This document shows positions 2,715 to 38,082 of a stretch of 47,093 nt of DNA, piece by piece. Source of the stretch: a virus. Every line of letters starts with the position of its first letter. Position 1 is the first letter of the stretch. The stretch spans positions 1 to 47,093 of the IMG/VR virus record IMGVR_UViG_3300042696_000053. One strand, given 5' to 3'. Under the pieces are notes generated by a model. The model ran no database searches. It worked only from the letters and a program-made list of their open reading frames with translations, and had not been told where the DNA came from. The position numbers and the translations under genes were made by a program.

Positions 2715-2992
2715 GCCTGTGCCTCCTTCCGGGCCTTGCGCTGCGGCTCGACGCGCAGCAACTTGCCCTCCTGATCGTCCAGCGTCAGGGTCCGCGACTT
2801 CAGCCGCAGGCCGAGGCGCCGGTTGGCGATGATGGTGCGCAGCGTCTCCAACTGGTTGCGGCTCATGTATGGAACGAACACCGGTTGGCCAGCCAGCAGT
2901 ACGCCGACTACCTCACCCCACTTGGATTCCTGCGGCATGGCGCTGAACATTTCGTCTGAGCGCCGCTTCTCCACCCGGCGAAAGTCGATCAT
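2711..2992 (-). CDS. Hypothetical small basic protein
   Basis: A 93-residue protein of unknown function. The middle reads as a compact alpha/beta unit (GEVVGVLLAGQPVFVPYMSRNQLETLRTI is the core stretch, about residues 26-54), and the C-terminus is strongly basic and charged. No catalytic motif or cysteine cluster is visible. It ends in an ATGA overlap with the membrane-peptide gene and lies just downstream of the ADP-ribosyltransferase gene. It might bind nucleic acid through the basic tail, which is only a guess. Confidence 0.65.
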   Translation of the reverse strand: MIDFRRVEKRRSDEMFSAMPQESKWGEVVGVLLAGQPVFVPYMSRNQLETLRTIIANRRLGLRLKSRTLTLDDQEGKLLRVEPQRKARKEAQA

Positions 2993-3036
2993 CTAGTGTC
3001 TGCTCCGGTACTGCAGGATTCTGATTATAGGGGCGG

Positions 3037-19171: not shown

Positions 19172-19683
19172 TGCCTGACCCACGGGTGTGCAGCATCTGC
19201 AGCACCGAGAAGGGGGCACTTGTCAACGCCCTGCTGCAGGGCGGTCGCTCGCCCCACTACATCGAGGGCCAGATGCGGTCCATGGATTCTCCGGTCAAGG
19301 CCGAGACGATCCGCAGGCATGTCAAGCGCTGCCTGAACGGCAAGATCGAGAACATCGGGCTGCTGGAGCAGGCTAGCCGGGGCGAGAAGGTGACCAACAA
19401 CACCGACTTCGCCATCGCCATCCGGGCCGAGGCCAACCGCAGGTTGGCTGAGGGCACGCTCACCGTCACCGCCCAGCACGGCCTGCAGGCGCAGGCGCTG
19501 ATCGACCGCCGCGCTGAGAAGGCAGCAGACCGGCGGATGATGGTCGAACTGGCCGGGCTGTTGTCGGGGGCCATCAGCCTCGACGGCCCGCCCGAGGACC
19601 TGATCGAGGGCGAGTTCACCGAGGTCTCCGATGACGCCGACCAGCAGGCGCTGGCTCCGCTGGCGTTGGTGATGAACGAGTGA
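19171..19683 (+). CDS. Probable terminase small subunit
   Basis: A 170-residue protein directly before the large subunit and overlapping it by GTGA. The N-terminus has CSICSTEKGALVNALLQGG and a helix-turn-helix-like stretch (VKAETIRRHVKRCL) suited to DNA recognition. A central helical region is followed by an acidic C-terminus. Small terminase subunits select the packaging start on phage DNA and hand it to the large subunit. The assignment rests on position and layout, as the sequence itself is poorly conserved in this family. Confidence 0.68.
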   Translation: MPDPRVCSICSTEKGALVNALLQGGRSPHYIEGQMRSMDSPVKAETIRRHVKRCLNGKIENIGLLEQASRGEKVTNNTDFAIAIRAEANRRLAEGTLTVTAQHGLQAQALIDRRAEKAADRRMMVELAGLLSGAISLDGPPEDLIEGEFTEVSDDADQQALAPLALVMNE

Positions 19684-21275: not shown

Positions 21276-23219
21276 GTGGTTGCAGAGCCCTACGTGCTGA
21301 GCGCATCTCGCGCCGTTGATTACAACCGCGAGTTGAGTGGCGACCCCGAGGAGAACGCGGTCCTCCAGCAGATCGCGGATCGCAAGTACCAAGTCGAGCC
21401 GCAGCAGGCCGCCTTCGCTGCGCTGTGCGACCGCTGGGACAACCTCTACTACCCCGAGACGGTGCTCGACCATGCGGGTGCCAGCCACTGGGCCAGCCAT
21501 CCCAGCGCCACTACCCCGGGCCGTGCCCACGTCAGCGTCAACGCGCCACCGGTGTTCGTGGACATCCCGGCCTCGCTGCAGAGCGTGCCGCCCATCGAGA
21601 ACATGGTGGCCACCGTGGCCGACGAGCAGGGTCGCCAGTTGGCGGCTATGGCCGAGCGCCTCTACTTCGCGTGGAAGGACGAGGAGCAGTGGGAACTGAA
21701 GGGCCACAAGGCCTGTGTGACCAAGGCGCTGTACGGCATCACGGCGGGCAAGGTCTATTGGGACCCCGAGAAGAACCGGCCCTGCGTTACCATCGTGGAC
21801 CAGCCGCGCAACTTGTATCTCGGCTGGCGCACCTCCGACTACAAGGACCTGAACTGGGCGCTCTACTGCTATCGCCAGACGGCTGAGGGCGTCTACGAGG
21901 AGTGGGGCTTGGAGGTGGACGCCGAGAAGGACGGCGATGGGACGGTGATCCCTTACGTCATCCCCATCGAGCGCAGCCAGCAGACGGGCGGCATCACCAC
22001 CACTCGCGCCTTCGCCGGGCAGCCGATGGAGGTCGAGGTCTACGACTACTGGTATCGCCGTCCGACCAAGACCAAGCGGCGGGGCAACGCCTATGGCGGC
22101 GTGAAGATGGAGACGTGGAACGCGATCTTCGTCGGCAACGTGTGCGTGAAGATGGAGCGCCACCCCGAGTACGACGGGCGCATCCCCTACGTGCCGCTGT
22201 TCAATACCTACATCCCGGGCGTGCCGATGGGGCGCCCTGAACTGTTCGACATCGAATCGCTGCTGCTGGAGAAGGACGAGCGCCTGACGGCGGGCGCCCA
22301 GATGCTGGGCAAGACGGTTGATGGCCAGTATTGGCAGTTGGTCGGGCCCGAGTCCCCGGACACGGTGCCGAATGGGGTGATGCCTAAGCCCAACAAGGTG
22401 GTGGCTCCCGGTGCGGGCAATCGGATCGAGGCCATCACGCCGTGGATGCCGAACTTCCAACTGGAGCAGTACCTTGCTCGCATCGACCGCGAAATCAGCG
22501 ATGTGTCGGGCCTGAACGAACTGCTGCGTGGACTGGCCCCGGCCAGTGTCATGTCATCCTCCAAGGCGATCACCGCACTGGTGGCCAACTACGAGGCCCG
22601 GGTGCGGATCAAGCGTGACCTCTACTACGAGTGGCGCCAGAACATCTGGGAACTGGCCAGCGTGATCTGGGCTCGCAAGAACCGGGTGCTGGCGCCGGTG
22701 CTGTCCGGGGTTGCCCACTTGCTGGCCACCGCGCCGAACCTGACGCCGCGTGATGACATGGAGACGGCGGCCATGGCCTCCAACCTCGTCAACAGCAAGT
22801 TGTGGTCGCTGTCGCGGGGCATGGATCGCGTGGGCGTGGATGATCCCGAGTCCGAGGAGGACATCATCCGCACCGAGAGCACGGATGCCAGCCTGTTCCC
22901 CGAGCGGGTGCAGACCATGACCCAGTTGATCGCGGTGCTCCAGTCGCTGGGCCAGCAGCAGGCCGCCATGGCCGCTGCCGGGCAGGCGCCGGGCGGGGTC
23001 AACCCCGAGCAGGGGCTGGCGGCTACCCGGGCCGCCATGGGCGGCCAGCAGGGGGTGCCGATGCTGAACGCCCCGGAGGAGCAGCCGGTCGCGCCGCCGC
23101 CCGAGGTCCAGCCTGCCAACGTGACCGGGCCGGAGGCCTTGTCGTCGCAGACCATGGTGCAGGGCGGGGAGGCGTCCGGGCGGATTTTGAGCCAGACCGA
23201 GGTGCCCCTGAATGGCTAG
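21276..23219 (+). CDS. Portal protein
   Basis: A 647-residue protein directly after the large terminase, starting with GTG next to its stop. It has the portal layout: helical N-terminus, ALYGITAGKVYWDPEK and VTIVDQPRNLYLGW strands of the wing/clip region, a long helix after SDVSGLNELLRGLAPASVMSSSKAI (key residues only), then a Gln/Ala/Pro-rich disordered tail. The SGxNELLRGxAPAS segment is characteristic of portals of many actinobacterial and marine phages. It forms the dodecameric DNA gate. It overlaps the next gene by eight bases. Confidence 0.85.
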   Translation: MVAEPYVLSASRAVDYNRELSGDPEENAVLQQIADRKYQVEPQQAAFAALCDRWDNLYYPETVLDHAGASHWASHPSATTPGRAHVSVNAPPVFVDIPASLQSVPPIENMVATVADEQGRQLAAMAERLYFAWKDEEQWELKGHKACVTKALYGITAGKVYWDPEKNRPCVTIVDQPRNLYLGWRTSDYKDLNWALYCYRQTAEGVYEEWGLEVDAEKDGDGTVIPYVIPIERSQQTGGITTTRAFAGQPMEVEVYDYWYRRPTKTKRRGNAYGGVKMETWNAIFVGNVCVKMERHPEYDGRIPYVPLFNTYIPGVPMGRPELFDIESLLLEKDERLTAGAQMLGKTVDGQYWQLVGPESPDTVPNGVMPKPNKVVAPGAGNRIEAITPWMPNFQLEQYLARIDREISDVSGLNELLRGLAPASVMSSSKAITALVANYEARVRIKRDLYYEWRQNIWELASVIWARKNRVLAPVLSGVAHLLATAPNLTPRDDMETAAMASNLVNSKLWSLSRGMDRVGVDDPESEEDIIRTESTDASLFPERVQTMTQLIAVLQSLGQQQAAMAAAGQAPGGVNPEQGLAATRAAMGGQQGVPMLNAPEEQPVAPPPEVQPANVTGPEALSSQTMVQGGEASGRILSQTEVPLNG

Positions 23220-25716
23220 GACCGGCAGGTTCGGGCGCCTGCCGCGTACCGCTCCCAACTTGGCCAGCGTGATCGTGGCCATGATGCGGGAGATTGCCTC
23301 GCAGGAGGACTCCAACATCGTTGACGCGTGGCAGAACGGCGGCGAATACAAGGGTCGTCCGGTCACCGACGAGATGCTGCTGCGCCATTTCCGCCAGCGG
23401 CGCGATGGCGTGTCGAAGCGCGATCCGCTGTGGGACAAGTGGAACAACACGCTGCTGAACTACGAGTTCAGCATCGCTGAGTCGAAGATGTCCCTGAAGT
23501 ACGCCCAGCACAAGGTGGGCGAGGGCCAGATGGCCGACTTCTACCGCAAGTGGGCGGGCAAGGTGCCGCACAACTCGGAGGTCTACCGCAGCCTGATGCG
23601 CTCGGCGGCCCAGTTCGCGGATGCCGCCACTTCGCGGGCGGCGGGCTCTCGGGCAGCGGCCAGCCAGTCGGGTTACAACAGTGCGGTCGAGTCATCGTGG
23701 AAGAAGTACGAGCGTGACTACGACAACGCCTCCAGCCTGCTGCTGACCGCCGCTTACCGGGCGGGCATCCTGCAGCAGACCGACACCACCACCCCGGATG
23801 ACCTGATGGACCTGCGGGGCGGGGATGAGGCCGACCATGCTCGCTTCCTCGACCTGTTCGACCAGATTCAGAGCGACCCGTACTACGCCGACATCAAGGC
23901 CGCGCTGGACAAGAGCGGCTTGGCCGGGCTGACCTACGGCCAGTTCGTGTCGCTGGGGGCTGACAAGACCCACGGCATTGACGCCCGCATCCGTATCGCT
24001 CGCCAGTTCGGGGACGAGTCGGGTGCCAAGGCGGCAGTCGAGGAAAAGACGAAGTTCTTGCTGCAGCGGGCCAAGGTGGCCGACATTGACGAGTTCGCGG
24101 CCTACGAGAACTACCGCCGCACCGTGCAGAACGCACTGGCCAACGACGTGATGAACCCGTGGGAGGTCAACGACCTGCTGACGGGCTATGCCGACGCGTT
24201 GCGCAACTTCCGTGACTCGGCGGTGGCCGAGGAGGACAAGGGATTCTTCAATAACGAACTGAGCGCGTTCAGCGGGATGGGCACGATTGGGCCCACCGCC
24301 TTTGAGGGCACCGAGGGCGGCATCCGCACCAACACCAGCGCCGATTCGCTGGGGCTGTCAAGCATCCTGCTGCTGGCCCAGAACACGATCAAGGCGGTCG
24401 AGGACGGGCAGGCGGTACTGACCGTCAGCGTGGACAAGAACGGGCAGGAAGCCTACGGCACTATGGCTCGCAACGATCCCAGTCTGAGCGACCCACACAA
24501 CGGCACGATGGTGTTCCTGCCGGGCGGCAGCCATGGCACCATCCCGGCGTATGCGGTCTATCAGCCGGTGCTGCTGCAGCCTGCTGAACTCGATCCGCGC
24601 ACCGGTCGCCCAGCGGGCAACCCGGGGGTGGCGGGCGACCAGCAGGTCGGCGTGGTCATGCGGATCAACGGCCATGACTACTACGGCATTTACGTCGGGC
24701 AGGGCGGGCAGGACATCCGCTGGTTCGCAGACAGCCCGTTCAAGGCTGGGGCCACGGTGGAGCGCGGAACCGACGGGATGGTGGTCACCGCGCCGGTGTC
24801 GCTCCTGTCGGGCACCACTGATCCCACCACCGGCGAGATGTTGGGCTTTGATCCGTTGTCGGTCATCGACCCCCGGGCGCTGAATGACGAGTTGACCTAC
24901 ACCAACCGTTTCACCTCGCCGGTCGAGGCGGTCTACACCTTCGACTCCGAGGCGCGGAGTGCGCTGCTGCACACGTCGGATGCCCAGTTGCAGGCCGCTG
25001 CTGCGTTGGCCCCAGACCCGGTGACCGCGTTCGCCCAGTTGCGGGACTTGCGCAACACCATCGTGGAGCGCACCAACGCTCGCGCCTTCTCGCTGATCGA
25101 CTCGGGCTTCATGGGTGCGGCCAACCCGCGCCAGTTGATCGCACAGGGCTACCAGTTGACGCCCGAGCAGCAGGCTGCCATCGAGACGTTCGCCCCGACC
25201 GGGGAGCCACCCGCTGTCACCTACGCGCAGATCGAGCACCGGAGGGCGGTATTGACCGCCCATCTGGCCTCACGCGATGTGCCGGTCCCGGCTGCGGTGC
25301 AGCACTACCTGAACTACGCCAACAACTCGCTGGTGCGCGATCTGGGTGGTCCGCTGCATGGGCCCGAGTCGTTCGGCACCACCCAAGCAGAGGTGGATCG
25401 CTTCACGGGAGGCCAGCCGGTCACCTACACCCCGGTCAAGCAGGCTGGGCCGGTGCCTTCGCCGGTTGAGCCCAGCCTGCGGGTGCCTGCTGTGCCGCAG
25501 GCCCCGGCGCTGTCGGGCACGGCCAACGTCAATCTGCCAGCCGAACTGCCCGCACCACCGCACCCACGGATCACCCCACAGGTCCAGCCGCAGCCGCCGG
25601 AGGCCCAGCCGCGCCGCATCCGTACTCCGCGCCTGCCGAAGAACTCGCCGCTGGTCAACCCGATCCTCACGCCGTCGTTCGTGAGCAAGGTGACCCAGAA
25701 CCTGCCGAGGTACTAG
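23212..25716 (+). CDS. Large virion protein, unknown role
   Basis: An 834-residue protein between portal and polyvalent protein. The N-terminal 350 residues are mostly helical and charged; the middle (about 390-530) is beta-rich (VLTVSVDKNGQEAYGTMARN, VGVVMRINGHDYYGIYVG, WFADSPFKAGATVERG); the C-terminus is a Pro-rich linker. Size, position and domain mix suggest an internal virion or ejection protein, or a head-morphogenesis factor. No catalytic motif is visible. It starts inside the portal stop and ends just before the 3033-residue gene. Confidence 0.65.
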   Translation: MARTGRFGRLPRTAPNLASVIVAMMREIASQEDSNIVDAWQNGGEYKGRPVTDEMLLRHFRQRRDGVSKRDPLWDKWNNTLLNYEFSIAESKMSLKYAQHKVGEGQMADFYRKWAGKVPHNSEVYRSLMRSAAQFADAATSRAAGSRAAASQSGYNSAVESSWKKYERDYDNASSLLLTAAYRAGILQQTDTTTPDDLMDLRGGDEADHARFLDLFDQIQSDPYYADIKAALDKSGLAGLTYGQFVSLGADKTHGIDARIRIARQFGDESGAKAAVEEKTKFLLQRAKVADIDEFAAYENYRRTVQNALANDVMNPWEVNDLLTGYADALRNFRDSAVAEEDKGFFNNELSAFSGMGTIGPTAFEGTEGGIRTNTSADSLGLSSILLLAQNTIKAVEDGQAVLTVSVDKNGQEAYGTMARNDPSLSDPHNGTMVFLPGGSHGTIPAYAVYQPVLLQPAELDPRTGRPAGNPGVAGDQQVGVVMRINGHDYYGIYVGQGGQDIRWFADSPFKAGATVERGTDGMVVTAPVSLLSGTTDPTTGEMLGFDPLSVIDPRALNDELTYTNRFTSPVEAVYTFDSEARSALLHTSDAQLQAAAALAPDPVTAFAQLRDLRNTIVERTNARAFSLIDSGFMGAANPRQLIAQGYQLTPEQQAAIETFAPTGEPPAVTYAQIEHRRAVLTAHLASRDVPVPAAVQHYLNYANNSLVRDLGGPLHGPESFGTTQAEVDRFTGGQPVTYTPVKQAGPVPSPVEPSLRVPAVPQAPALSGTANVNLPAELPAPPHPRITPQVQPQPPEAQPRRIRTPRLPKNSPLVNPILTPSFVSKVTQNLPRY

Positions 25717-25719
25717 GCC

Positions 25720-28700
25720 GTGACCTTCGATTTCAGCGGAGCGATCCGGTCGCTGCAGAGCCGCCCCAGCCCGAACTTCGACCCCTACGATCCGTTTTCC
25801 ACGACCTCGGGGCTGAGCACCTATTCGGCGCTGCCCAACATCGTGTCGCCCATCAGCCTGCGGACCATGCAGACCCTGCCGATGACCCGCGCCACTGCGC
25901 AGCGGGCCGATCCCATCGTGCCGGGCCCACTGGGTATCTGGCAGTTGCAGAGTCGCTCGCGGCCCAACGAGCAGATCGGCAAGTTCGGCGTCAACCTGCT
26001 GGGCGAGCAGGGCTATACCCCGGGTGCGCCGACCCCGTATGCCACTCAGCCGACCGATGCCGCAGCCCAGTTGCGGGCCATGGCCGATCCCAACAACCCG
26101 CAGAACCGGGGCTTCATCGAGGGCCTGCTGGGCGGCATCGGCGGCATCTTCGGGCAGGGCGGCAAGGATGTGGGCTCGTTCGTGGGCTCGATCTTCGACT
26201 TCCCGCTGGAGTTGTCGGGCAACCTGCTGGGCCTGCCCGGCTCGTTCGCCACCGCGCAACTGACCACCGGTGGCAAGGCATGGGACCCCGATATTCAGGC
26301 CATCTACGATCAGGCGGCCAAGCAGAACCCGCTCAATGGGTTGCTGCTGTGGGGGCAGGCGGCCAAGGCCCAGTGGGTGCGTGACACCGAAGCGGGGCGC
26401 CACACCGGGCTGTACGCCGACTTTGGCCCCGCGACTGCCCTCACCGACCAGTTGGGGTTCATCCTGCAGGGCCTGTCGGTGCCGATGCGCTGGACCCAGC
26501 GGGCCTTCAGCGGCGGTGCCACCGACCAGTCCATGGCCGATGTGGAGCGGGCGCTGGCCTCCGGGGCTGAGACCTACACCGATGCGCAGGGCGTGGTTCA
26601 TTCGACTGCCGATTGGATCAAGAACAGCGCGTGGGCCCGGGTCCAGCAGCGGCTGGCGCGGGGTGACTTCGGCCCGGTTGGTTCGCAGGAGGCCCGCGAC
26701 AAGGCCATCGACGCGTTGATCGTGGAGGGCAGTCTGCTGCGTGACGCGGGCGACCCCGACCAGCAGGGCTTTCTGACCGGACAGGGACTGGCCGACATCG
26801 CCTTCAGCCTCGTGACCGACCCGACCCTGATCGCCAGCAGCATCGTCGGAGCGGCGGGCAAACTCGGCAAGGTTGCCACTATGGCCGCCAACGCCAAGTT
26901 CTGGCAGACGGTGCCCCGCGAACTGCTGCCCAAGGTCATGGCCGAGGTCGAGCGGGTCGGGATGAAGGTCGGCGCCTTCGACAACCCGGAGCGGGTGTGG
27001 AGCACGCTGGGCCGGGCGACCCGGGGCGAGACCGAGCAGGCGTTGGCCGAAGGCGCTGGGCTGGCGACTCGTACAGGCCGGGTGGCAGACGCTCGCAACT
27101 TTGAGTCGCAGGTGCTGCGCGAGGTAATGCAGAACCCGGAGTTCGCCTCGTTCCGCAACGAGGGTGGTCGGGCGCTGGAATACATCGACAACTGGCGCAA
27201 CACGTGGGAGCCTGCCCTGCGCCCGATCGCCGGGCTGGTGCGCACCATCAACGATCCGTTCCGCCTGTTTGGGCATGGTCGGGCTGAGCGCTGGATGAAC
27301 GATGTCTACTCCTCGCAGGCCACCGAGGGCCTCATCCGGGGGCAGGGTGGATTGGACGCCCACGCCAAGGTGCAGCGCCTGCTGGGCGAGGTGGGTGAGA
27401 CCTTCCGACAGCGCTACGACCGGGGCCTCGGCACCTATGCCGCCTTTGAGGCGCGGGTCTATCACCGGGCCGGGCTGGTCAGCGACCTGCGCCGCCGCAT
27501 CCTCAGCGGGGATGGCACGGTGGGCGACCTGATGGCGTATTTGCCCGATGAGGCCATTCGGTCGCGGATGAACGGCTCGACCGCCGGGGACATCGCCAGT
27601 GGGATGGAGAAGCAGGCCCTGCGTTACCGCCCGTTGTACCTCGCCACCGAGCGGGGCGGCGGTGAGGCTGCGCTGGCGCGGGCCCGGGTGGAGGGCGCCC
27701 AGCGGTTGCAGATGATGGGCATGGCTGAGGCTGCCGCCACCAGTACGGCGGCCAAGATGGGACGCGATGAACTGTCGATGCTGGATGGTGCCTACTTCGG
27801 CTATGCCATGGACCAGTTCGTCACGGCTCGCAAGGCCGGACTGGGCCTGTCGAAGAAGGCGGCCAAGGGCATCAACTACGAGACGCTGACGATGATCGGG
27901 CCTCGGACGCTGACCCGGGGTGAAGCCGAAATCGTGCTCGACGCCGTGAAGCGCGGAGCGACCGAGGAAGTGCGGGCAGCGGTGCGCCGATACGACCTGC
28001 TGTTCGAGAACCTGAGCGAGAACCTGAGTGATGCCGATCTGCTGAAGGCCGTCCGTGAACTGGTCAGCGACCAGATGGATGCCGGGGCGCTGCCGACCAT
28101 CATCGAGGACCTGCGCAACCTCACGCCCGAGATGCGGCACTGGGCCGAGACGAACGCCGAGGCGGGCTACCGGGTGGGCTTCCGGCCCGAGGACCCGAGG
28201 AAGTTGTGGCACGTCACCGTCAACCCCGATGGCAACGTGGTCGGTATCAACCCGTGGCTGGACGTGGCTGCCGAGGCTAGCGACGTGCCGACCTACAGCC
28301 GGGGCCAACTGCTGCGCGACATGCTGTTCCATGACATCCGGGGCGAGCGGATCATGGCCGACGCTCGGGTGCGGCTGGCGCAATACACCTCCGAGCAGTG
28401 GGGCCTGCCCCGGGCCGATTCCGATGCGCTGTTCGCCCGCCTGTTGCGGTCGGCACAGGAGGCGGGCATCACCCCGCGTGGTATGGCGCCTGAGCAGGTC
28501 TACAAGATCGTGCGGACCCACGGCATCCCCAAGGATGTGATGGAGGGGATCGGAGTGCGCGAAGCGGTCGAGGCCCTGCTCTATGCCTTTGAGGGCAACT
28601 GGAAGCGGGTGGGCCTGAGCCAGAAGTTCACCGGCTATGCCAAGACCACGCTGGGCGGCCAGTCGAACTGGCTGGGGCAGGTGGCCGAGAAGATTTACCC

Positions 28701-31700
28701 AGCGGTGCGCTTCACCCTGAACCCGTTGTTTCAGGCGCAGGAACTGGTCGAGCCCTTCATTCTCAACATCGTGCGCGGCATCAAGCCGGGCTTCCGGGCC
28801 AGCGAGATGGACGAGCGCACCCTCAACCTGATCGAGACCCTGATCCGCGACAGCAAGTACGCCTACGACGATCAGATCGAGCGTGACGTGGTGCTGCTGT
28901 GGGGTGCTGACAGTGCCCGCAAGGCGTTCGGCCCCAACTCGCGGCTGGGCCAGATGGTGCGCAAGATGACCGTCGGTGGCCTCATCAACGTGAAGGAGGT
29001 CAAGCGCGTCAACTACGCCCGCGTGATCCGCCGCCAGTTGGGCAAGGAGTTCGCGGACAACATGGACCGGGTGCAGCCCGGCTTCATGGCCAAGATGGCG
29101 GCGCAGTACCAGACCTCTGACCCGGGCGAGATTGCCGTGCGCTGGCTCACCGACAAGTCCCGGCTGGAGACCCCGCTCCATGCGCTGAAGCCGGAGTCGC
29201 TGGGGGCTCGCACGCCCATTGACCTCGATCAGGCCGCACAACTGTTCGATGGTGTGCCCGATGGTGCGGCCTTGCGGGCAGCCGTGCGCTCAGGCGACAT
29301 GACGGTCGATGACTTCCGAGATGCTCTCGTGAATGCTGGAGCCGACCCGGCCTATGCCGACCGGGCATTTATGACGGCGGCCTCTCCGGTGTCGGCATCC
29401 GAGTTCTGGGACGAATACCGCAGCGTGTTCCGGGGTGGCAACCAGCGAGCGACCAACGCTGACCGGGCCGTGTTCAAGGCCTTCGCCGAGCGCCACGGCA
29501 TGAGCGAGGAGGAGTTCATCGCCAAGGTCATGGCCGATACGCCGCAGAGCGCGGATCACATGGCGGTGGCGGCGATGGCGGCTGCCGACAAGCGGGGTTA
29601 CCAGTTGATGGCCGAGGCTATGGACGCCGCTATCGGCGAGCCCAGCGCCGAGGCTGACCGGATGCTCGACTGGTTCCGCCGGGTCACCAACTTCAGCGCC
29701 GACCGGGAGCACCTCATCATCGTCACGCCCGAGGGAGACGTGGTGGGTCAGGCCCAGCAGGCTGCGCCATGGCGGCTGTGGACCGAGCCGGGCATCGACT
29801 ACGTGGCTACGCGCAGTGGCGTGGGCGTCGTGGAGCGTAAGGCGGGGATGGTCACCGACGCCAACATTGGCGATGCCGAACTGGCCGACGTGATCGACAA
29901 GATGCCCGGCAACCATGTGGGCCATAACCACCCGGATCGCAACGCGTTGAGCCCGGCTGACATCGGCACGGCGATGATTCACCGGACCCGCAGCCTGTCG
30001 GCCATGTCGCCCTCGGTCACCTACACCATCGAACCCAACGTGGTCGATGGCTGGATCACACCCGAGTTCTTGGATGAGTTCGGCGAGGCGACCGACTGGG
30101 CCAACATGGCCCCGGACGATCCGGGCTGGTTGGAGGTCCGGCTGCAACTCAACAATCTGTGGGACGAATACACCCGCGAGTTCGTGGATCGGGTGAAGAA
30201 CCTGCCCTACTACCGCGACCGGGACCCCTCGCGCTGGGATTCTTTCATTGAGGAACTGGGTGTGCAGCACGCCAACCAGCGCATCGCGGATCGCTATGGC
30301 TGGCGTTTCACGGTGACGCCGCACTACTTCATGCCGACCGAGCGGGAGCACCGCTATGCGGCCTTCTATGAGTCGTTCCTGAATCCGCCCTCGGGGCTGG
30401 GTAAGCGCTTTCCGGGCGCCTATCGCAGCCTTGTTCCTGAGCGGGTGGCGATGGAGGGACACGGCACCGAGGTCGCCTACGAGGTGGTGTCCGACAACGA
30501 CCAGTTGTTCAACCTGATCGGCAGCCTGCCCGAGGAGGCCCAGCGCCAGATCACCGACACGTGGGACGATTGGCTGCGCTCCGAGGTGGCGCCTGAACTG
30601 GGGCTGGCCATCGGGCGGGTGGTCCGGGGCGTGGGTGGCTGGACCGATGAGCATGGCGTGTTCAGTCAGGCCATCAACGAAGTGCAGGACGTGTTCGGCA
30701 ACATCGAGCAGGCCACTGACTACGCGAGGGCCATCGGCTACCTGCGGCAGCAGTCGGCAGTGGTCGTCTCGCGCCACCTCCCGGGCGTGGTGGTGGCTGA
30801 TACCGCTCGCGGGCAGAAGTGGGCGGTTCACGTCAATCTGGGGCAGGTGGACGATCTGGTGGCCTCGGAGCGTCTGCGCGAGGTCAGCGAGGCAGCGCCG
30901 GGGCTGGGCGCGTGGGGGTCGAGCATCACCCGCGATGTCAACGGCAACGCGGTCCTGCGCTTCGTGGACTTCACTGGTGAGGGGATGGTGGACGAGGCGG
31001 CTTTTGCCTCGCGCATGGATGAGGTGCTGCCTGAGCAGGCGCTGGCCCACATCGACTACGAGGAGGTCAGCCCGGCTGTCGTAGACTATCGCTACGTCGA
31101 GAACGACTGGGAGAAGAACCCCCATGGGGAAGCGTATCTACAGGCGCTCGGTCAGCGGCGCCCAGACCTTGTTCGACGGCTCGCAGGTAAGTCTGGGGCC
31201 GGGGGGTCGCTCGCCAAGCGCTCCAACGATGTCCTCGCCCACGCCCTCGACTCCTACGCCCCCACCGAGTGGCAGCAGCACCTCGCCGACCTCCGGGCCC
31301 GAGGTCTCAACCCCAAGTTCCGCGCCGTCGGAGACTTCACCCCTGCCCCCGAAGGGGTAGACCTCATCCTGCCCGGTGGCCGGGCACGGTTCTTCGACAG
31401 TCCCAACGAGCCGCTGTCGCTGTGGGAGCAGCAGAACGTCAAGGCCCAGCGTATCAACGCGGCAGGGTGGTACGCGGCTGATCCCGAGGGCTACCTGCGC
31501 TTCATGCACGCGGTGTGGCACTCCAAGGAGAAGGATGTCACGCTCCCTCAGAACCTCTACAACGCTTTCGCGTGGGCCGCGCTGACCGCCAACGCACCGC
31601 TGGAGGTGACCGAGGGCGCCTTCGGACTGGTGCGAGCCGGGGGCCGGGTGGCACAGGAAGCCGGGCTCGTCGGGTCGTATGGGCTGCGGGCCCGCGAGGC

Positions 31701-34700
31701 ATGGGCCCAGCGCATCCTGAACAAGTTGCCCGAGGAGTTCCGCACCAACCCCGAGGCGGCTGGGATCGCGCTGCAACTGGATCAGGGGATGCGTTTCAGC
31801 AGTTTCGATTTGGCCAAGGCCGATTGGCTGACCACCCGCGAGTTCGCCACCGCTGATCGGGTGGCCACCCGCATCAACGAGCGCCTGCGGGCCATGACGC
31901 CTGAGCAGCGAGCCCGGTGGGTGCCGCGCATCCAGCAGCGATTGGATGGCGCTGTCCGACGCAAGGGCCGGGCGGGAGCGATGGGTGTGGGGCGCGGCCT
32001 CAACCGTGGCAACCTGCGGCTGCAGGTCCATGAGTTCCCGGCCCACACGCTGACGACCTATGGGATCGACGGCACGCCCAAGGACCTGTCCTCGTTCGTG
32101 ACCGTGGTGCGCCCCAAGGTGCGCCTGAAGGGCACGGCCACCAGCCAGCAGTGGGGCCGGATTCTGCTCTGGCTGCGGGACGGGATGTGGACCACCGACT
32201 ACGTTCCGCTGCGCCGTTTTATGACGCCACAGGTCAACGAGAGCCTCAGCCAGTACGCCCTGCGGATGAGCAGCCTGCTGCCGGGGATCGACGTAAAGAC
32301 GGCCATGATGGCGGGCCAGACGCTGGCTCCATCAGCCATGGCGCACGGGGCGCTGGACACCCACATGCTGCGCAACATCATGGAGGTGGCCCGCCGCCGG
32401 GGCGATCTGGAGGACCTGCTCGGACGCCTGACGCCGGGCTATGCCGACCACCTGCGCACTGAACTGGCCCGGGCCGACACCTCGCTCAGCACAGCCTTCA
32501 AGAGCCCCCGTGTCACGCGCATCCGGTTGGTGCCGACGGCCATGGAGAAGGAGGCATGGGGCCCGGCCAAGTTGCAGGCCATGCGCCGTAATCTGTCGAA
32601 GATCGCAGACCCCGAGATGCGGGCGCTGTACGACGATGAGGCGGTGCTGTTGCGCATCGCCAAGGCCAGCCCCGATGGCCACGTCAACGTCTGGGGTGGC
32701 GATTACGCGGTGCTGGATGACTACTTCAACACCGTGGTGCGGGCTGATGAGGCGGCAGCGCTGGAGGCTGCCGGGCAGCAGGGCGCGGCCCGGCTGGTCG
32801 AGCGCCTGTCGGGCGGCCAGTGGCAGTGGCAGAAGTGGGACCGTATCCGCTCCGAGGCGGCGGGCATCCCGCTCGATCCGCATGTCTCGATCACGAAGGG
32901 CGCGGATGCCATGCTGCCGCCGCAGGCCGGAGTGCTGGACCGGGCCATCGAGGTGATCCGGGGCGGCCAGCCCTTCGACCCGAGGGTGGGCTGGCTGTGG
33001 CAGCAGAGCGATGGTCGGGTGCTGGGCGCCAACCAGATTCTGCGCAGCGGCAAGCGCATCCTGCTGGCTACCCAGTTCGCGGATGGGCGCACCGGGCTGC
33101 ACGAACTGGCCCACGCCTTTGAGCCGTTCCTCGACCCGTCGATGCGGGAGCAGATTCTGGAGCAGTTCCGGGCTGCCACTGGCTCACGCCGCACCACGTG
33201 GGGCCGGGTGGTGTCCGAGTGGTGGGCCGACAGCCTGTTGACCTACGCCCGCTCGCGGGGCCGCAAGGGCAATCAGGCCCTGCGCTCCTCGTTTGAGTAC
33301 CTGCGTCACTCGCTGGATGGAGTGGAGCGCAACGTCGCGGCAGCCAAGGCGCTGGAGGCCAGCGAGAAGGTGAAGGCGGCTGCGATCCGCAAGGCCCAGA
33401 AGGTCATCGACAGGCAGGGACCGGTGCTGAAGGACGCACAGGCGGCTACCCGTGCGGCCAACCGGGTGTACGAACGGGCTGCCCGCGATCTGCGCCGGGC
33501 ACGGGCTCGGGCCTCACTGGGCACGTTGGAGGAGCGGGCCAACGCGATGGGCGATGTCGTAACGCATGTCGATCAGAACCTGCGTGACGCCAAGGGCGAA
33601 CTGCGTGCGGCCATCGGTGAGGCCAAAGCCGCTGAGGTGCGGGCCCGTGAGGCACTGGGTACTAGTACCGCTGGCGGTGCCCGTACTAGTGCCAACGCCA
33701 AGGCCCGCGCCGTAGAGCGCCAGCGCCAGCGGGTGAAGGACCTGAACGCTGAACTGCAGAAGGCTCGCGCTGCCCAGAGCAAGGCCAACCGGGCAGCGGG
33801 TGCTGCACGGCGCCGGACCCCCGTAGCCGAACTGGAGGCCACCCGTGACCGTGCCCGTGATGCCCTACAGGCTGCCCTCCGTCAGCAGCGTGAGGCGCAG
33901 AAGGTGCTGGATGATGCGAAGAAGGCGCTGGGGTCGGCACACAACATGAAGCCCGGTCGGGTGAAGGTCGGCCCGATCCAGATGAGCCCTGAAATGCGGG
34001 CCATCTGGGACGACCTGACCACCCCGCCCGAGCAGCCCTCGCTGATTGCTGGGACCGGCCAGCCCTACGACCTGCAGCAGGAGGCGGTCTATCAAGCGGC
34101 ACGGCTGGCACTGAGCCGGGCCGAGGAGAACGCCTTTACCCTGCACTTCTACAAGCGAGGGCGGTCGATGCTGGAGCGCTCGATCAACCACCCGTACTTC
34201 GGCCTGTACCCGGCCTCCTACATGTGGGGCAAGATTCTGCCCGAGATGATCCGGTTCCTTGTGAAGGAGCCGTTTGGGGTGCAGGCCCCATTGGGTGGGC
34301 TGCTGCTGGCCAACAACATCTATCGCAGCGTGATGCTGCAGCAGCAGTTCGATCCCGAGTTCCGCAAGCACATGGCCGAGAACACCGACCTGTGGCGCTT
34401 CGTGGCGATTATGACGCCCAGCCTGCCGTGGGAGGTGCCGGTCAACGCCCCGCTTTGGATGCGGCGCCTGTCGGAGGGTGCCCTGAACTACGACGACAAG
34501 TTGGCGTCTTACCGGGCTCGGGCGGCTGCCGGGCGGCTGACGCCCAGCGAGAAGCCGCCGGAGTTGGCCAATCTGGAGGATGTCGGCAACATCGGGGCTG
34601 AGATGCTGAACTACGCGTTTGGGCCTGCCAACGCCATCACCACGGTCACTGGTGCGATCAGTGGTTCGGTCAGTGCGGCCAGTAGTGCGGTCGGCTACGT

Positions 34701-34821
34701 GACCGGCACTGGCAACAGCGAGACCGATCAGGCGGTGAGCGAGATTGACAGAATCCTGCAGCCACCGGTTGACGCAGGTGCTAGTATCCCGCCAGCGCTC
34801 AGCCCGACCGTTGGGCGATAA
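25720..34821 (+). CDS. Giant polyvalent virion protein with JAMM and zincin motifs
   Basis: A 3033-residue protein (GTG at 25720). About residues 1370-1415 hold a JAMM/JAB peptidase motif: GHNHPDRNALSPADI with H1402, H1404, S1411 and D1414. Residues 2461-2465 (HELAH) with E2500 in VVSEWWAD form a second, zincin-type metallopeptidase site. Residues about 2535-2745 are a long Ala/Arg/Lys coiled coil. Residues about 2800-2920 contain a hydrophobic conserved-looking block (HPYFGLYPASYMWGKILPEM). An earlier block near 990-1030 (KIYPAVRFTLNPLFQAQELV) is of the same style. Phage polyvalent proteins carry such mixes of effector domains and are packaged and ejected with DNA to meet host defences. Here that is inferred from position (between portal and scaffold) and domains. 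Confidence 0.8.
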   Translation: MTFDFSGAIRSLQSRPSPNFDPYDPFSTTSGLSTYSALPNIVSPISLRTMQTLPMTRATAQRADPIVPGPLGIWQLQSRSRPNEQIGKFGVNLLGEQGYTPGAPTPYATQPTDAAAQLRAMADPNNPQNRGFIEGLLGGIGGIFGQGGKDVGSFVGSIFDFPLELSGNLLGLPGSFATAQLTTGGKAWDPDIQAIYDQAAKQNPLNGLLLWGQAAKAQWVRDTEAGRHTGLYADFGPATALTDQLGFILQGLSVPMRWTQRAFSGGATDQSMADVERALASGAETYTDAQGVVHSTADWIKNSAWARVQQRLARGDFGPVGSQEARDKAIDALIVEGSLLRDAGDPDQQGFLTGQGLADIAFSLVTDPTLIASSIVGAAGKLGKVATMAANAKFWQTVPRELLPKVMAEVERVGMKVGAFDNPERVWSTLGRATRGETEQALAEGAGLATRTGRVADARNFESQVLREVMQNPEFASFRNEGGRALEYIDNWRNTWEPALRPIAGLVRTINDPFRLFGHGRAERWMNDVYSSQATEGLIRGQGGLDAHAKVQRLLGEVGETFRQRYDRGLGTYAAFEARVYHRAGLVSDLRRRILSGDGTVGDLMAYLPDEAIRSRMNGSTAGDIASGMEKQALRYRPLYLATERGGGEAALARARVEGAQRLQMMGMAEAAATSTAAKMGRDELSMLDGAYFGYAMDQFVTARKAGLGLSKKAAKGINYETLTMIGPRTLTRGEAEIVLDAVKRGATEEVRAAVRRYDLLFENLSENLSDADLLKAVRELVSDQMDAGALPTIIEDLRNLTPEMRHWAETNAEAGYRVGFRPEDPRKLWHVTVNPDGNVVGINPWLDVAAEASDVPTYSRGQLLRDMLFHDIRGERIMADARVRLAQYTSEQWGLPRADSDALFARLLRSAQEAGITPRGMAPEQVYKIVRTHGIPKDVMEGIGVREAVEALLYAFEGNWKRVGLSQKFTGYAKTTLGGQSNWLGQVAEKIYPAVRFTLNPLFQAQELVEPFILNIVRGIKPGFRASEMDERTLNLIETLIRDSKYAYDDQIERDVVLLWGADSARKAFGPNSRLGQMVRKMTVGGLINVKEVKRVNYARVIRRQLGKEFADNMDRVQPGFMAKMAAQYQTSDPGEIAVRWLTDKSRLETPLHALKPESLGARTPIDLDQAAQLFDGVPDGAALRAAVRSGDMTVDDFRDALVNAGADPAYADRAFMTAASPVSASEFWDEYRSVFRGGNQRATNADRAVFKAFAERHGMSEEEFIAKVMADTPQSADHMAVAAMAAADKRGYQLMAEAMDAAIGEPSAEADRMLDWFRRVTNFSADREHLIIVTPEGDVVGQAQQAAPWRLWTEPGIDYVATRSGVGVVERKAGMVTDANIGDAELADVIDKMPGNHVGHNHPDRNALSPADIGTAMIHRTRSLSAMSPSVTYTIEPNVVDGWITPEFLDEFGEATDWANMAPDDPGWLEVRLQLNNLWDEYTREFVDRVKNLPYYRDRDPSRWDSFIEELGVQHANQRIADRYGWRFTVTPHYFMPTEREHRYAAFYESFLNPPSGLGKRFPGAYRSLVPERVAMEGHGTEVAYEVVSDNDQLFNLIGSLPEEAQRQITDTWDDWLRSEVAPELGLAIGRVVRGVGGWTDEHGVFSQAINEVQDVFGNIEQATDYARAIGYLRQQSAVVVSRHLPGVVVADTARGQKWAVHVNLGQVDDLVASERLREVSEAAPGLGAWGSSITRDVNGNAVLRFVDFTGEGMVDEAAFASRMDEVLPEQALAHIDYEEVSPAVVDYRYVENDWEKNPHGEAYLQALGQRRPDLVRRLAGKSGAGGSLAKRSNDVLAHALDSYAPTEWQQHLADLRARGLNPKFRAVGDFTPAPEGVDLILPGGRARFFDSPNEPLSLWEQQNVKAQRINAAGWYAADPEGYLRFMHAVWHSKEKDVTLPQNLYNAFAWAALTANAPLEVTEGAFGLVRAGGRVAQEAGLVGSYGLRAREAWAQRILNKLPEEFRTNPEAAGIALQLDQGMRFSSFDLAKADWLTTREFATADRVATRINERLRAMTPEQRARWVPRIQQRLDGAVRRKGRAGAMGVGRGLNRGNLRLQVHEFPAHTLTTYGIDGTPKDLSSFVTVVRPKVRLKGTATSQQWGRILLWLRDGMWTTDYVPLRRFMTPQVNESLSQYALRMSSLLPGIDVKTAMMAGQTLAPSAMAHGALDTHMLRNIMEVARRRGDLEDLLGRLTPGYADHLRTELARADTSLSTAFKSPRVTRIRLVPTAMEKEAWGPAKLQAMRRNLSKIADPEMRALYDDEAVLLRIAKASPDGHVNVWGGDYAVLDDYFNTVVRADEAAALEAAGQQGAARLVERLSGGQWQWQKWDRIRSEAAGIPLDPHVSITKGADAMLPPQAGVLDRAIEVIRGGQPFDPRVGWLWQQSDGRVLGANQILRSGKRILLATQFADGRTGLHELAHAFEPFLDPSMREQILEQFRAATGSRRTTWGRVVSEWWADSLLTYARSRGRKGNQALRSSFEYLRHSLDGVERNVAAAKALEASEKVKAAAIRKAQKVIDRQGPVLKDAQAATRAANRVYERAARDLRRARARASLGTLEERANAMGDVVTHVDQNLRDAKGELRAAIGEAKAAEVRAREALGTSTAGGARTSANAKARAVERQRQRVKDLNAELQKARAAQSKANRAAGAARRRTPVAELEATRDRARDALQAALRQQREAQKVLDDAKKALGSAHNMKPGRVKVGPIQMSPEMRAIWDDLTTPPEQPSLIAGTGQPYDLQQEAVYQAARLALSRAEENAFTLHFYKRGRSMLERSINHPYFGLYPASYMWGKILPEMIRFLVKEPFGVQAPLGGLLLANNIYRSVMLQQQFDPEFRKHMAENTDLWRFVAIMTPSLPWEVPVNAPLWMRRLSEGALNYDDKLASYRARAAAGRLTPSEKPPELANLEDVGNIGAEMLNYAFGPANAITTVTGAISGSVSAASSAVGYVTGTGNSETDQAVSEIDRILQPPVDAGASIPPALSPTVGR
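31124..31360 (+). other. Embedded second-frame ORF coinciding with a codon-use anomaly
   Basis: Within the giant gene, another frame runs from ATG (31124) to TAG (31360), 78 codons, beginning MGKRIYRRSVSGAQTLFDGS and then very Ser/Thr/Pro-rich. In exactly this stretch the main frame uses CTC for nine of twelve leucines (positions 31138-31369), whereas flanking leucines are mostly CTG. A run of six G (31201-31206) lies inside. No Shine-Dalgarno site precedes the ATG. It may be chance, a recently acquired segment, a nested gene or a frameshift product. Confidence 0.3.
33658..33690. repeat. Two GTACTAGT palindromic motifs 25 bp apart
   Basis: GGTACTAGTACC, a perfect 12-bp palindrome, lies at 33658-33669, and GTACTAGT recurs at 33683-33690. 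Both fall in the coiled-coil part of the giant gene and use rare ACT and AGT codons. They stand out in GC-rich coding DNA. A protein-binding or recombination site is possible; coincidence is not excluded. Confidence 0.4.
34782..34787 (+). promoter_or_regulatory. Candidate -10 element ahead of scaffold and capsid genes
   Basis: TAGTAT lies inside the 3' end of the giant gene, 55 bases before the scaffold start. A -35 at normal spacing is not evident, although TTGACA (34745) and TTGACG (34769) lie nearby at non-standard distances. A dedicated promoter for the abundant scaffold and capsid proteins would make sense. Confidence 0.28.
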
Positions 34822-34842
34822 CAGTTGAATCAGGAGACATCG

Positions 34843-35442
34843 GTGCAAGAAGGATCGCCCGCCGATCCCTCTGCCGCGTCCGAGGCCACTGCCGCCACCG
34901 AGACGACCGAGCCCACCGAGGGTGAAGTTGAGGAGGTCACGTCAGAGGCCCGCACGCCAGAGGAAGTCGAAGCCATCTGGAGGAACCGGGTCGCAGGCAA
35001 GGACCGGGCTCACGCCGCCGAGGCTGCGGAACTGCGTAGGCAGATCGAAGCGCTGAACCAGCGCATCACTGCAGGCCAGTCGCAGTCAGGGCAGGTGACT
35101 GACCCGGACGATGCCAGCCAGTGGAAGGCCAAGGCCGAAGCCGCTGAGCAGGCCCTTCGTGAGAAGGAAGCCGCCCATGCGGTCGAGGTCAGACTGGCGA
35201 AGTACCCCGCCGCTGCTGAGGTGCTGAGTGAATCAGCGCTGGCAGCCGAGGACGAAGCCAAGTTGGCCGCACTCAATGCTCGCCTCAGCGAGGAGAGTGC
35301 TGCACCGCCACCGGTCATGGACCCGAACGCACCCCGTCGCCCGTCCCAGACCCCATCCACGCCTCGTGACAAGGGTGTCGATGAACTGGAGTCGGACCTG
35401 AAGAAGTTTGAGCCCGAGTTCTTGGGGTCGCTGAACCAGTAG
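34843..35442 (+). CDS. Probable capsid scaffolding protein
   Basis: A 199-residue acidic, helical protein directly before the major capsid gene. The N-terminus is Glu/Thr/Ala-rich and disordered; the centre is a coiled coil (HAAEAAELRRQIEALNQRI); the C-terminus is charged (ELESDLKKFEPEFLGSL), the usual capsid-binding end of scaffolds. The GTG at 34843 is chosen over TTG at 34825 because AGGAG lies six bases upstream. It shapes the procapsid and leaves on maturation. Confidence 0.78.
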   Translation: MQEGSPADPSAASEATAATETTEPTEGEVEEVTSEARTPEEVEAIWRNRVAGKDRAHAAEAAELRRQIEALNQRITAGQSQSGQVTDPDDASQWKAKAEAAEQALREKEAAHAVEVRLAKYPAAAEVLSESALAAEDEAKLAALNARLSEESAAPPPVMDPNAPRRPSQTPSTPRDKGVDELESDLKKFEPEFLGSLNQ

Positions 35443-35496: not shown

Positions 35497-36486
35497 GTGG
35501 CTACGCTGACCACAGCAACCACCAACTTCAACAACACGGTCACTGCGCTCGTCCTGAAGCAGATCGACCGCAACCTTCGGGATGCGTCGGTCTACCTGCA
35601 GGAGGGCGGATTCGTCCGGGGCGACCTGATCCCGGGCACCAACCTGATCCGGCACATCGCTTACAGCGACATGTCGGTGACGACCAACAACAACACCGTG
35701 ACGCCGGGCACCCAGCCGTGGCTCACGGAGGGTGTGCCGCCCACCGACGAGGCGCTGGCGATCTTCTACGAGGAGTACGGCGCCCAGCAGGCCGGTCGCA
35801 CGCTGGCGATCAGCGACATCGCACTGGCCCAGAGCCCGCACAACCTCATGGCAGTCGCCGCCGAGCGGATCGGCACCAACGCGGCCCAGACCATCGACCT
35901 GTTCGTCGGTAACGTGCTCCACGCGGGCACGGCTCGCGTCCTGTACGCGGGGGCCGCGACCAGCCGGGTCACCGTGGCCGCGACCCACAACATGACGGGT
36001 GCGCTCATCCGTCGCGCCGTGGCGGTACTCAAGACCGCCAACGTTCCGACCTTCCCCGACGGGACGTACCACGCCTTCATCAGCCCGATGGTCACCCACG
36101 ACCTGATCGCGGACACGGCCACGGGTGGGTGGACGGACATCACGAAGTACAGCGAGCCGGGCCGGTTCCGCACCGGCGAGGTGGGGCGGTACTTCGGTGT
36201 CACGTTCTTCGAAACGAACGTGGCCAACCTGTTCGCCAACTCCGGCGTGGGCGGCACGGTGGATGTCTACTCCACCTTCATCTTCGGGCCGGACTCGTTC
36301 GCCTTCGGCGATCTGCAGTCGATTCAGGCCTACATGGTCAGCCCCGGTGGTGACCACACCGACCCGCTGGCCCAGAAGGCCATCGTCGGCTGGAAGGCGA
36401 TGTTCGGGACGAAGTTGCTCAGCATCACGGGTGCGGGCAACAAGTACCTGCGCATCGAGGCCGCGTCCAGCATCGGCGCCAACTAG
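35497..36486 (+). CDS. Major capsid protein, N4-gp56 type
   Basis: A 329-residue protein after the scaffold gene. The pattern fits the N4-gp56 branch of HK97-fold capsid proteins: an N-terminal helix, FVRGDLIPGTNLIRHIAYSD, then LTEGVPPTDEALAIFYEEYG and a GRYFGVTFFETN strand, with FKAMFGTKLL-like end (GWKAMFGTKLL). It starts with GTG at 35497. A stem-loop follows the stop, as is common after capsid genes. This capsid type occurs in both short- and long-tailed phages. Confidence 0.87.
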   Translation: MATLTTATTNFNNTVTALVLKQIDRNLRDASVYLQEGGFVRGDLIPGTNLIRHIAYSDMSVTTNNNTVTPGTQPWLTEGVPPTDEALAIFYEEYGAQQAGRTLAISDIALAQSPHNLMAVAAERIGTNAAQTIDLFVGNVLHAGTARVLYAGAATSRVTVAATHNMTGALIRRAVAVLKTANVPTFPDGTYHAFISPMVTHDLIADTATGGWTDITKYSEPGRFRTGEVGRYFGVTFFETNVANLFANSGVGGTVDVYSTFIFGPDSFAFGDLQSIQAYMVSPGGDHTDPLAQKAIVGWKAMFGTKLLSITGAGNKYLRIEAASSIGAN

Positions 36487-36543: not shown

Positions 36544-37164
36544 ATGCCGCCTACGCTGGCCCAACTGCGCACCTCGGTCTCCCGCGATCTGCGGGATACC
36601 GGCAACCGCACCTTCCTCACGGCCTATGTCAACGACCTCATCAACGCCGGGATCGAGGAAGTCGGGCGGCTGTACCCGGTGGAGACCATCGACTCCATCG
36701 ACGTGGCGGCCAGTACCTACGCCTATGCCACGACCCTGCAGCAGGCCTTCCGCTGCGAGGTGTGGCGCTCCGGTGCGTTCAGCGCCCTGATCCCGCAGGC
36801 CGAGGAGGATTCCCAGTCGGGCTGGGACCTGTTTGCCGGGCAGTTGCTGCTGCCCAAGGGCATCATCGACGGGCTGGTCCCGGCCACCGATGATCTGCAC
36901 CTGTGGGGCTACGATCAGCGTATCCAGTTGGTCAACGACAATGACGTGTCCGATCTGGACTCGACCGCTGAATGGGGCGTGCGGCACTACGCCCGGGCAC
37001 AGGCCTTCACGCTGATGAACAACGACCGCGCCCTGTTCAAGCAGTGGCAGGGTCAGAGCAACAACACCGACGTGACCCTCAGCCAGTTGAGCCAGATGGT
37101 GTCGCTCTACACCAGCGAGTGGGACCGCCAGCGGAACTACCTCCGTCGCCTTCGGAGGACCTAG
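36544..37164 (+). CDS. Head-tail adaptor protein
   Basis: A 206-residue protein after the capsid gene, beginning MPPTLAQLRTSVSRDLRDTG with the helical TFLTAYVNDLINAGIEEVGR segment found in gp6-like adaptors that attach under the portal. The middle is beta-rich and the end is a helix (LSQLSQMVSLYTSEWDRQRN). CGGAGGG sits before the ATG. It likely forms the ring that joins portal to tail. Confidence 0.7.
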   Translation: MPPTLAQLRTSVSRDLRDTGNRTFLTAYVNDLINAGIEEVGRLYPVETIDSIDVAASTYAYATTLQQAFRCEVWRSGAFSALIPQAEEDSQSGWDLFAGQLLLPKGIIDGLVPATDDLHLWGYDQRIQLVNDNDVSDLDSTAEWGVRHYARAQAFTLMNNDRALFKQWQGQSNNTDVTLSQLSQMVSLYTSEWDRQRNYLRRLRRT

Positions 37165-37167
37165 CCC

Positions 37168-38079
37168 GTGGACCTGACGCGAGGCGTGGGCTATCGAGGC
37201 TTCGCCCTCAACAGCCTCCAGTTCGATGCCGAGACCCGTGACATGGTGGGCTGCGAAATCACCAGCGTCGAGTACGGCCATGTGCTCGGGGTGGGCTACG
37301 ACGAAAAGCGAGCGCTGGGCGAAGGCCGGGATGCGTCCGACGTGTTCCTCGACCGCCGCCTCATCTCACTGGCGGGCAACGTCTATGGTCGCAGCCGGGC
37401 CGAGGCGATGGACCAGTTCCGGGGTCTGAGCGAGGCCCTGTCACCGGTGGACGCCTACGGTGAGGACCCGGGCCAGAAGGGCTTTCTGCCGCTCGACTTC
37501 TGGACCCCGACGCTGGACACCTATTTCCAGCCCTCGGGCCTGATTCACCAGATGCTGCTGGCCAGACCCTTGGCCACGCCGGGTGCCCGGTTCGACAGTG
37601 ACCGCCATGGTGGGCCCGATAGTGGGGCCTTGGCCATCCCGTGGAACGCACAACTGGCCGCACGCAATCCGCGCATCCTGAACGTGGCGACCACCACTAC
37701 GGCCATCGACGTGGGCTCACAGGGCTCGGGCACGGTTCGCAACCGGGGCACCCGCCCGGCGGTGATCGAGGTCTACCTCGTCATCCCTACCAACGTGAAT
37801 GGCACCACCAACCCGGGCACCCTCAGCCTGAACATCGGTGGGGCCTTCAACTACGTGTGGACGCTGCCTCGCGCCGACCACCCGGTGGTGCTGCAATACG
37901 ACACCGACTCGCGGGTGACCGAGTACGACGATGATCTGCGGATGGACCTGATCGACTTCATCAGCGGCACCCCACACGGCCATCTGCAGCCGGGCCAGCA
38001 CTCCTACTCGTGGAAGGTCAACGCGGCGCACACCCTGCTGCCGGGGTCGTACTTCCGCTTCCGCGATACGTGGGCCTGA
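37168..38079 (+). CDS. Dit-like tail protein
   Basis: A 303-residue beta-rich protein, GTG start. The N-terminal part (GFALNSLQFDAETRDMVGCE, then ISLAGNVYGRSRAEAMDQFR and a GLSEALSP turn) has the layout of distal tail (Dit) proteins; the C-terminal half (NPGTLSLNIGGAFNYVWTLP, YDTDSRVTEYDDD) is a galectin-like sandwich. Dit forms the hub ring at the tail end of long-tailed phages. It is followed at once by a hub-like protein. The odd point is the lack of a tape-measure gene. Confidence 0.62.
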   Translation: MDLTRGVGYRGFALNSLQFDAETRDMVGCEITSVEYGHVLGVGYDEKRALGEGRDASDVFLDRRLISLAGNVYGRSRAEAMDQFRGLSEALSPVDAYGEDPGQKGFLPLDFWTPTLDTYFQPSGLIHQMLLARPLATPGARFDSDRHGGPDSGALAIPWNAQLAARNPRILNVATTTTAIDVGSQGSGTVRNRGTRPAVIEVYLVIPTNVNGTTNPGTLSLNIGGAFNYVWTLPRADHPVVLQYDTDSRVTEYDDDLRMDLIDFISGTPHGHLQPGQHSYSWKVNAAHTLLPGSYFRFRDTWA

Positions 38080-38082
38080 GCC

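Follow-up and report, generated by a model that had tools for sequence, protein, structure and literature searches.

A giant, probably polyvalent virion protein with a constant chassis and exchangeable enzyme domains, encoded beside phage head genes

The head-gene region of a viral genome record contains a gene for a protein of 3033 residues in which two different metallopeptidase motifs occur, and this raises the question of what such a polypeptide is for and where its enzymes would act. The record, a 47,093-base IMG/VR entry analysed at full length (the window), is classed as linear and may therefore be a fragment. Positions below are those of the window, and features lie on the + strand unless stated otherwise. 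The answer favoured here, with a probability of about 70 %, is that the gene product is a polyvalent virion protein of giant size and, most likely, an internal head or ejection protein of a short-tailed phage, in which a constant chassis carries exchangeable enzyme cargo.

The giant gene and its neighbourhood

The single 3033-residue frame originally predicted is borne out. It is one open frame (25720–34821) with a GTG start, a GAGG ribosome-binding-like site 9 nt upstream and a product with a calculated mass of 334 kDa. The residues named in the original prediction, H1402, H1404, S1411 and D1414 of a JAMM motif and HELAH (2461–2465) and E2500 of a zincin motif, are all found where they had been placed; in addition, the upstream JAMM glutamate, E1330, absent from that prediction, is present and conserved. 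The giant protein matches no family in Pfam or PHROG, which would be compatible with motifs that are chance occurrences or inactive remnants. This is very improbable, as residue-shuffled copies of the protein contain on average 0.04 HExxH and 0.007 HxHx5-8SxxD patterns each, and both together in 0.05 % of shuffles. Better evidence still that both motifs are real is the retention of their residues in proteins that are 24–44 % identical.

Upstream of the giant gene are the genes for the terminase large subunit, TerL (19680–21275; phrog_2), the portal (21276–23219; phrog_156) and an 834-aa protein of unassigned function that is syntenic among relatives (23212–25716). Downstream are a gene for a 205-aa protein (34825–35442), the major capsid protein (MCP) gene (35497–36486; phrog_1357) and three syntenic virion/tail genes encoding proteins of 206, 303 and 918 aa (36544–40839), the 918-aa protein being partly tail-fibre-like. 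The 205-aa protein had been called the scaffold; its position fits, but it has no PHROG match and is given here as a putative scaffold by position. The order TerL–portal–834 aa–giant–(scaffold)–MCP is conserved, in that the three upstream genes keep their order wherever the contigs of relatives extend, and in 53 of the 54 contigs with the C-terminal block described below the giant gene is followed by the capsid gene within 3 kb. This gene set suggests a podovirus-type morphology.

Elsewhere in the window, on the - strand (8891–12621), an AAA ATPase gene (MoxR/CobS-like, phrog_249) is followed by that of a VWA protein with a CobT-like hint, a pair retained in two relatives, G002 and G003. In G003 (L020, 4743–10011) some 5 kb of sequence with a 939-aa ORF in it separates the capsid gene from the 206-aa gene; in the window, unlike G003, the two genes adjoin. 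A contig from a gut phage (L005, 13404–21461), whose capsid gene is related, encodes downstream of that gene a 2685-aa protein with an HEGYH motif, which appears to be another giant polyvalent-like protein, on the opposite side of the capsid gene.

A constant chassis around a variable bay

A tblastn search with the giant protein against 50,697 deposited phage records (cultured phages) gave no match, and single-query scans of viral contigs, with either the whole protein or TerL, were equally negative. The capsid protein, used as the query, identified three near relatives and was the route into the family. A C-terminal alignment built from the window, G002 and G003 then yielded 48 IMG/VR loci, and an alignment of the central block seven further contigs. 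Homologues of the giant protein are present in 54 IMG/VR contigs, all with the C-terminal block; GTDB genome contigs searched with this block gave no confirmed match. Hits of the relative L044 among cultured phages (tblastn) came from its DNA methylase and were rejected as giant-protein homologues. Among the records searched, the family has no cultured member.

Comparison of these proteins reveals two conserved blocks, together termed the chassis. The N-terminal chassis (residues ~65–1280; 25912–29559), delimited by blastp against relatives and by tblastn, is kept whole or in part in most of them. In the most distant relatives only its middle is recognisable by blastp, and in L041 and L064 blastp of the window protein found no N-terminal block at the sensitivity used. 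It includes a Gly-rich hydrophobic segment (residues 131–180; 26110–26259), which from its hydropathy maxima is a possible membrane-active segment. A second segment, found by alignment and hydropathy (residues 355–393; 26782–26898), is hydrophobic and bears a TDP motif in which, among 19 aligned proteins, P368 is invariant and D367 nearly so. Further on, alignment identifies the conserved block NWLG..EKIYP.VRFTLNPLFQ.QE..EP (residues 983–1024; 28666–28791). The C-terminal chassis (residues ~2740–3010; 33937–34749), recognised by C-terminal alignment and tblastn, carries the pattern LERSINHPY.GLYPASYMWGK...PWE.PVNAPLW. It is preceded by an Ala/Arg-rich stretch of 206 residues with two prolines (residues 2535–2740; 33322–33939), which is delimited by composition and alignment, is helical in the part modelled, and corresponds to the putative coiled coil of the original prediction.

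The region between the two blocks, here called the bay, ranges from a minimum of about 100 residues (~105 in L052) to about 1600 (L024), and is nearly empty in L052 and L087–L090. Its contents are exchanged between relatives. An ADP-ribosyltransferase (ART; ADPrib_exo_Tox, PF03496), above the Pfam cut-off and with R, STS-like and ExE motifs, is found in L038, L048 and L058, and a GNAT acetyltransferase (PF00583), also above the cut-off, in L036. The giant protein of L044 (5084–10744), which lacks the zincin, scores 124.9 bits in its bay against the C-5 cytosine DNA methylase family (PF00145) and has the ENV and QxRxR motifs there; this enzyme is possibly packaged and would then shield the incoming DNA. 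In a tree of the chassis, the proteins with a JAMM domain form one clade and those with the ART another (each 100/99). That effectors occupy the bay is argued most strongly by this combination of a fixed frame with varied enzymes.

The window's own bay would comprise a RadC-like JAMM hydrolase, uncharacterised sequence, a zincin-like metallopeptidase and a long helix. The uncharacterised part (residues ~1460–2230; 30097–32409) spans some 770 residues of unassigned function and without a recognisable domain, for which blastp aligns almost only JAB-clade relatives. At its end (residue ~2230; 32405–32430), comparison with L024/G002 and L064 locates a site at which the relative L024/G002 carries an extra module of ~170–190 aa; the window lacks this module, and the distant L064 has it. 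The module (YHYTRDID...YGEPNAIWFS; residues ~2175–2345 of L024 and 1245–1373 of L064) is ART-like by eye only. In one further contig, present twice (L086 6959–11146 and L029 6623–10693), a lone in-frame TAG interrupts the giant frame after the N-terminal chassis and before the zincin part; either the gene is split or the contig is misassembled.

The original assignment to the polyvalent proteins is supported by this arrangement, in which unrelated enzyme domains are combined in one giant protein encoded in a portal–terminase–capsid block, and also by the ART, GNAT and DNA methylase domains of the relatives, enzymes familiar among injected effectors. Polyvalent proteins are recognised by at least two unrelated enzymatic domains per polypeptide, as the conserved JAMM and zincin motifs predict here, and by a location among the portal–terminase late genes, as is found.

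The zincin-like and JAMM domains

The zincin-like domain (residues ~2400–2545; 32917–33354) is delimited by alignment, model and profiles. In its HELAH motif (33100–33114), the H, E and H are invariant in 25 of 25 aligned giant proteins; as these were picked for HExxH, weight is placed on the fixed location of the motif and on flanking conservation. Downstream of HExxH, the 25 proteins share an LDPS-like stretch, and most have E(E/W), corresponding to E2500 (in SEWWAD; 33217–33219), the candidate third zinc ligand. An alignment of 19 proteins not picked for HExxH has H2461 invariant and E2462 at 90 % or above. The structure prediction that had been proposed as a check was partly successful for this domain. 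The model, confident at the motif, has three strands, the HExxH helix and further helices, with E2500 in the second of these, but it has no fold match in the PDB. It is near the core described for the polyvalent metallopeptidase, MPTase (PMC5512222), and as modelled it has the marks of a zincin-like MPTase, namely HExxH and a downstream Glu helix behind a three-stranded sheet. In a viral fold library, the top matches are fragments of giant phage proteins, one of them annotated as large-polyvalent-associated.

Searched against PDB sequences, the zincin profile gave chance hits only. Compared with eight schitovirus domains, it gave E=1.1e-4 and a score of 38.2, against a maximum of 20.5 in 60 column shuffles. 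When it was aligned to the whole 3500-aa virion RNA polymerase of phage N4 (vRNAP), the best local match was to residues 2196–2234, the known HExxH domain of that protein (PMC12633501). Within the family, a local profile detects the zincin in 31 proteins including the window's, most of them in the profile's training set. Apart from two weak matches, the L044, L051–L070 and L087–L090 groups have none, and many of their members carry an HExxH of their own at a similar place. As whole groups are almost devoid of profile matches, the chassis can do without the zincin. The zincin belongs to the common plan of most relatives and the JAMM domain is a clade-specific addition; the two are not equivalent.

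By analogy with N4 vRNAP-type proteins, the zincin would most likely either release the cargo, by cleaving the polypeptide of which it is part, or be structural. A wider structural role can also be proposed, in which the giant protein serves mainly in head assembly or as an ejection channel, and its zincin and JAMM domains mature phage proteins by proteolysis during assembly, without any delivery of enzymes to the host. The giant gene keeps its place between the portal and capsid genes, the zincin is the most conserved domain of the bay, and DdrB of phage P1 is processed prior to packaging (PMC5512222), all of which would suit such a role. However, an ART, a GNAT and a C5 DNA methylase are not assembly proteases, and a bay that can be almost empty argues against it; we consider this explanation improbable, though less so than chance motifs. 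On the preferred reading, that of a polyvalent ejection protein, the N- and C-terminal chassis would serve in packaging and in passage through the envelope with the DNA, and the enzymes of the bay would act inside the newly infected cell. N4 vRNAP demonstrates that a protein of such size can be packaged and ejected (PMC12633501).

The JAMM domain, which would be a clade-specific effector, forms the first part of the bay (residues ~1312–1450; 29653–30069) and is identified by conservation, model and profile. It is found in five proteins only (those of the window, L071, L024, L025 and G003), the other four being 24–36 % identical to the window in this domain. E1330 (29707–29709), which is on the first strand of the model, and H1402, H1404, S1411 and D1414 of the core HNHPDRNALSPAD (29923–29961) are invariant in all five. 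The profile search proposed in the original prediction found no Pfam match for the JAB region of the window, but two relatives have sub-threshold RadC and Prok-JAB matches; for RadC (PF04002), with a cut-off of 22.1, L024 reaches 12.8 bits and the window gives none. Structure prediction was likewise of mixed value for this domain. The model, built from the five-sequence alignment, is poor (mean pLDDT 50), but its a-b-b-a-b-a-b-b order fits a JAB domain, and its six best matches among 350,542 PDB chains are all JAB proteins, namely RadC, STAMBPL1 and AMSH-type enzymes (best E-value 0.024, with RadC as the top match). A JAMM profile aligned to Escherichia coli RadC (YicR) scores 29.5 at the HNHP..S..D motif, against at most 15.8 in 60 shuffles; spanning just 22 columns, the match is better evidence for the motif than for the fold in its entirety. 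The JAB profile gave chance hits only against PDB sequences. Models and profiles thus tie the domain to RadC/JAMM folds with low confidence.

What such a domain might act on can be considered in this light. No support was found for the ubiquitin-like target originally suggested; in fold as in profile comparisons, the domain comes closest to RadC-like proteins. On that suggestion, the domain would be injected and, as an isopeptidase, would remove ubiquitin-like modifiers and so disarm a Bil- or CBASS-type defence. The JAMM residues are complete and conserved, and the fold matches include AMSH-LP, AMSH, PfJAMM1, CSN5 and BRCC36, which would be in keeping with this; but RadC is the best of those matches, the Pfam hints are to RadC and Prok-JAB, and a PADLOC search for defence families gave no match for the giant protein. 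In addition, it has been argued that RadC- and toxin-type JABs have no tunnel for a ubiquitin tail (PMC3482391, PMC5512222), and an isopeptidase of this kind is unlikely. For the same reason, a nucleic-acid or nucleotide target is ranked above a ubiquitin-like one. For RadC-type JABs in polyvalent proteins, it has been argued that the groove for a ubiquitin tail is missing and that nucleic acids may be the substrate (PMC5512222, PMC3482391). Here, RadC-like processing of DNA ends or signals early in infection may be tentatively suggested by the top fold match and by the profile match across HNHP..S..D, together with the nucleic-acid processing proposed for the RadC domains of polyvalent proteins (PMC5512222). 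The function of RadC is itself disputed, however, the nuclease activity is putative and the profile match is short, so that this too is less than an even bet. A bolder and distinctly speculative extension is that a standard giant ejection protein serves as a general vehicle with an exchangeable middle, in which the JAMM domain removes a host modification or signal, possibly ubiquitin-like, at infection and is itself freed by the zincin.

Novelty and comparison with known systems

Polyvalent phage proteins are already known as a kind. What is new, within the reach of the searches, is this chassis family, the record of enzymes being exchanged in its bay, and the clade that carries the JAMM domain. 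They provide a clear comparative case of phages exchanging enzymes that are probably injected, with the frame constant and the enzyme a JAMM domain, an ART, a GNAT, a DNA methylase or almost nothing. Comparison of bays gives a direct listing of candidate enzymes for early action against the host or its defences, in phages with no cultured member in the records searched, and the chassis could be tried as a natural protein-delivery vehicle.

The Beephvirinae, Streptomyces podoviruses such as Stella and Kumquat, have an MCP related to that of the window (~30 % identity) and, encoded between the portal and MCP genes of the head block, a hypothetical protein of ~1640 aa (gp9/gp10). This is half as long as the window protein and has no sequence homology to it above shuffled controls; homology of the chassis to gp9 was rejected, with an hhalign score of 20.4 against up to 26.9 in 20 column shuffles. 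Members of the RadC/JAB–JAMM superfamily (PF04002, PF14464) share with the window domain the E..., HxH(P)... and S..D residues and the modelled order of helices and strands, with RadC the best fold match. In contrast, the window's domain is too divergent to reach the Pfam cut-offs and has a long insert from strand 2 to the motif, and six residues separate the second H from the S, where E. coli RadC and L025 have seven.

N4 vRNAP (gp50) and its schitovirus relatives are likewise proteins of ~3000–3500 aa, encoded near head genes, with an HExxH domain in the C-terminal half at which the window's zincin profile aligns exactly. They differ in that the window protein has a JAMM domain and other flanking blocks; a T7-like single-subunit RNA polymerase domain, sought in it with Pfam and PHROGs, gave no match, and ejection is known for N4 and predicted here. 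In plan, the window protein also resembles the phage polyvalent proteins (Iyer et al., 2017; PMC5512222), which are likewise giant, multidomain products of the portal–terminase late block with a zincin-like MPTase, and in which effector domains such as ART, GNAT and a JAB/RadC clade differ from one protein to another. The window protein differs from these in that its chassis and bay match no Pfam or PHROG model; and here a single conserved chassis with a variable bay can be traced across syntenic phages, with a C5 cytosine DNA methylase as the cargo of one relative.
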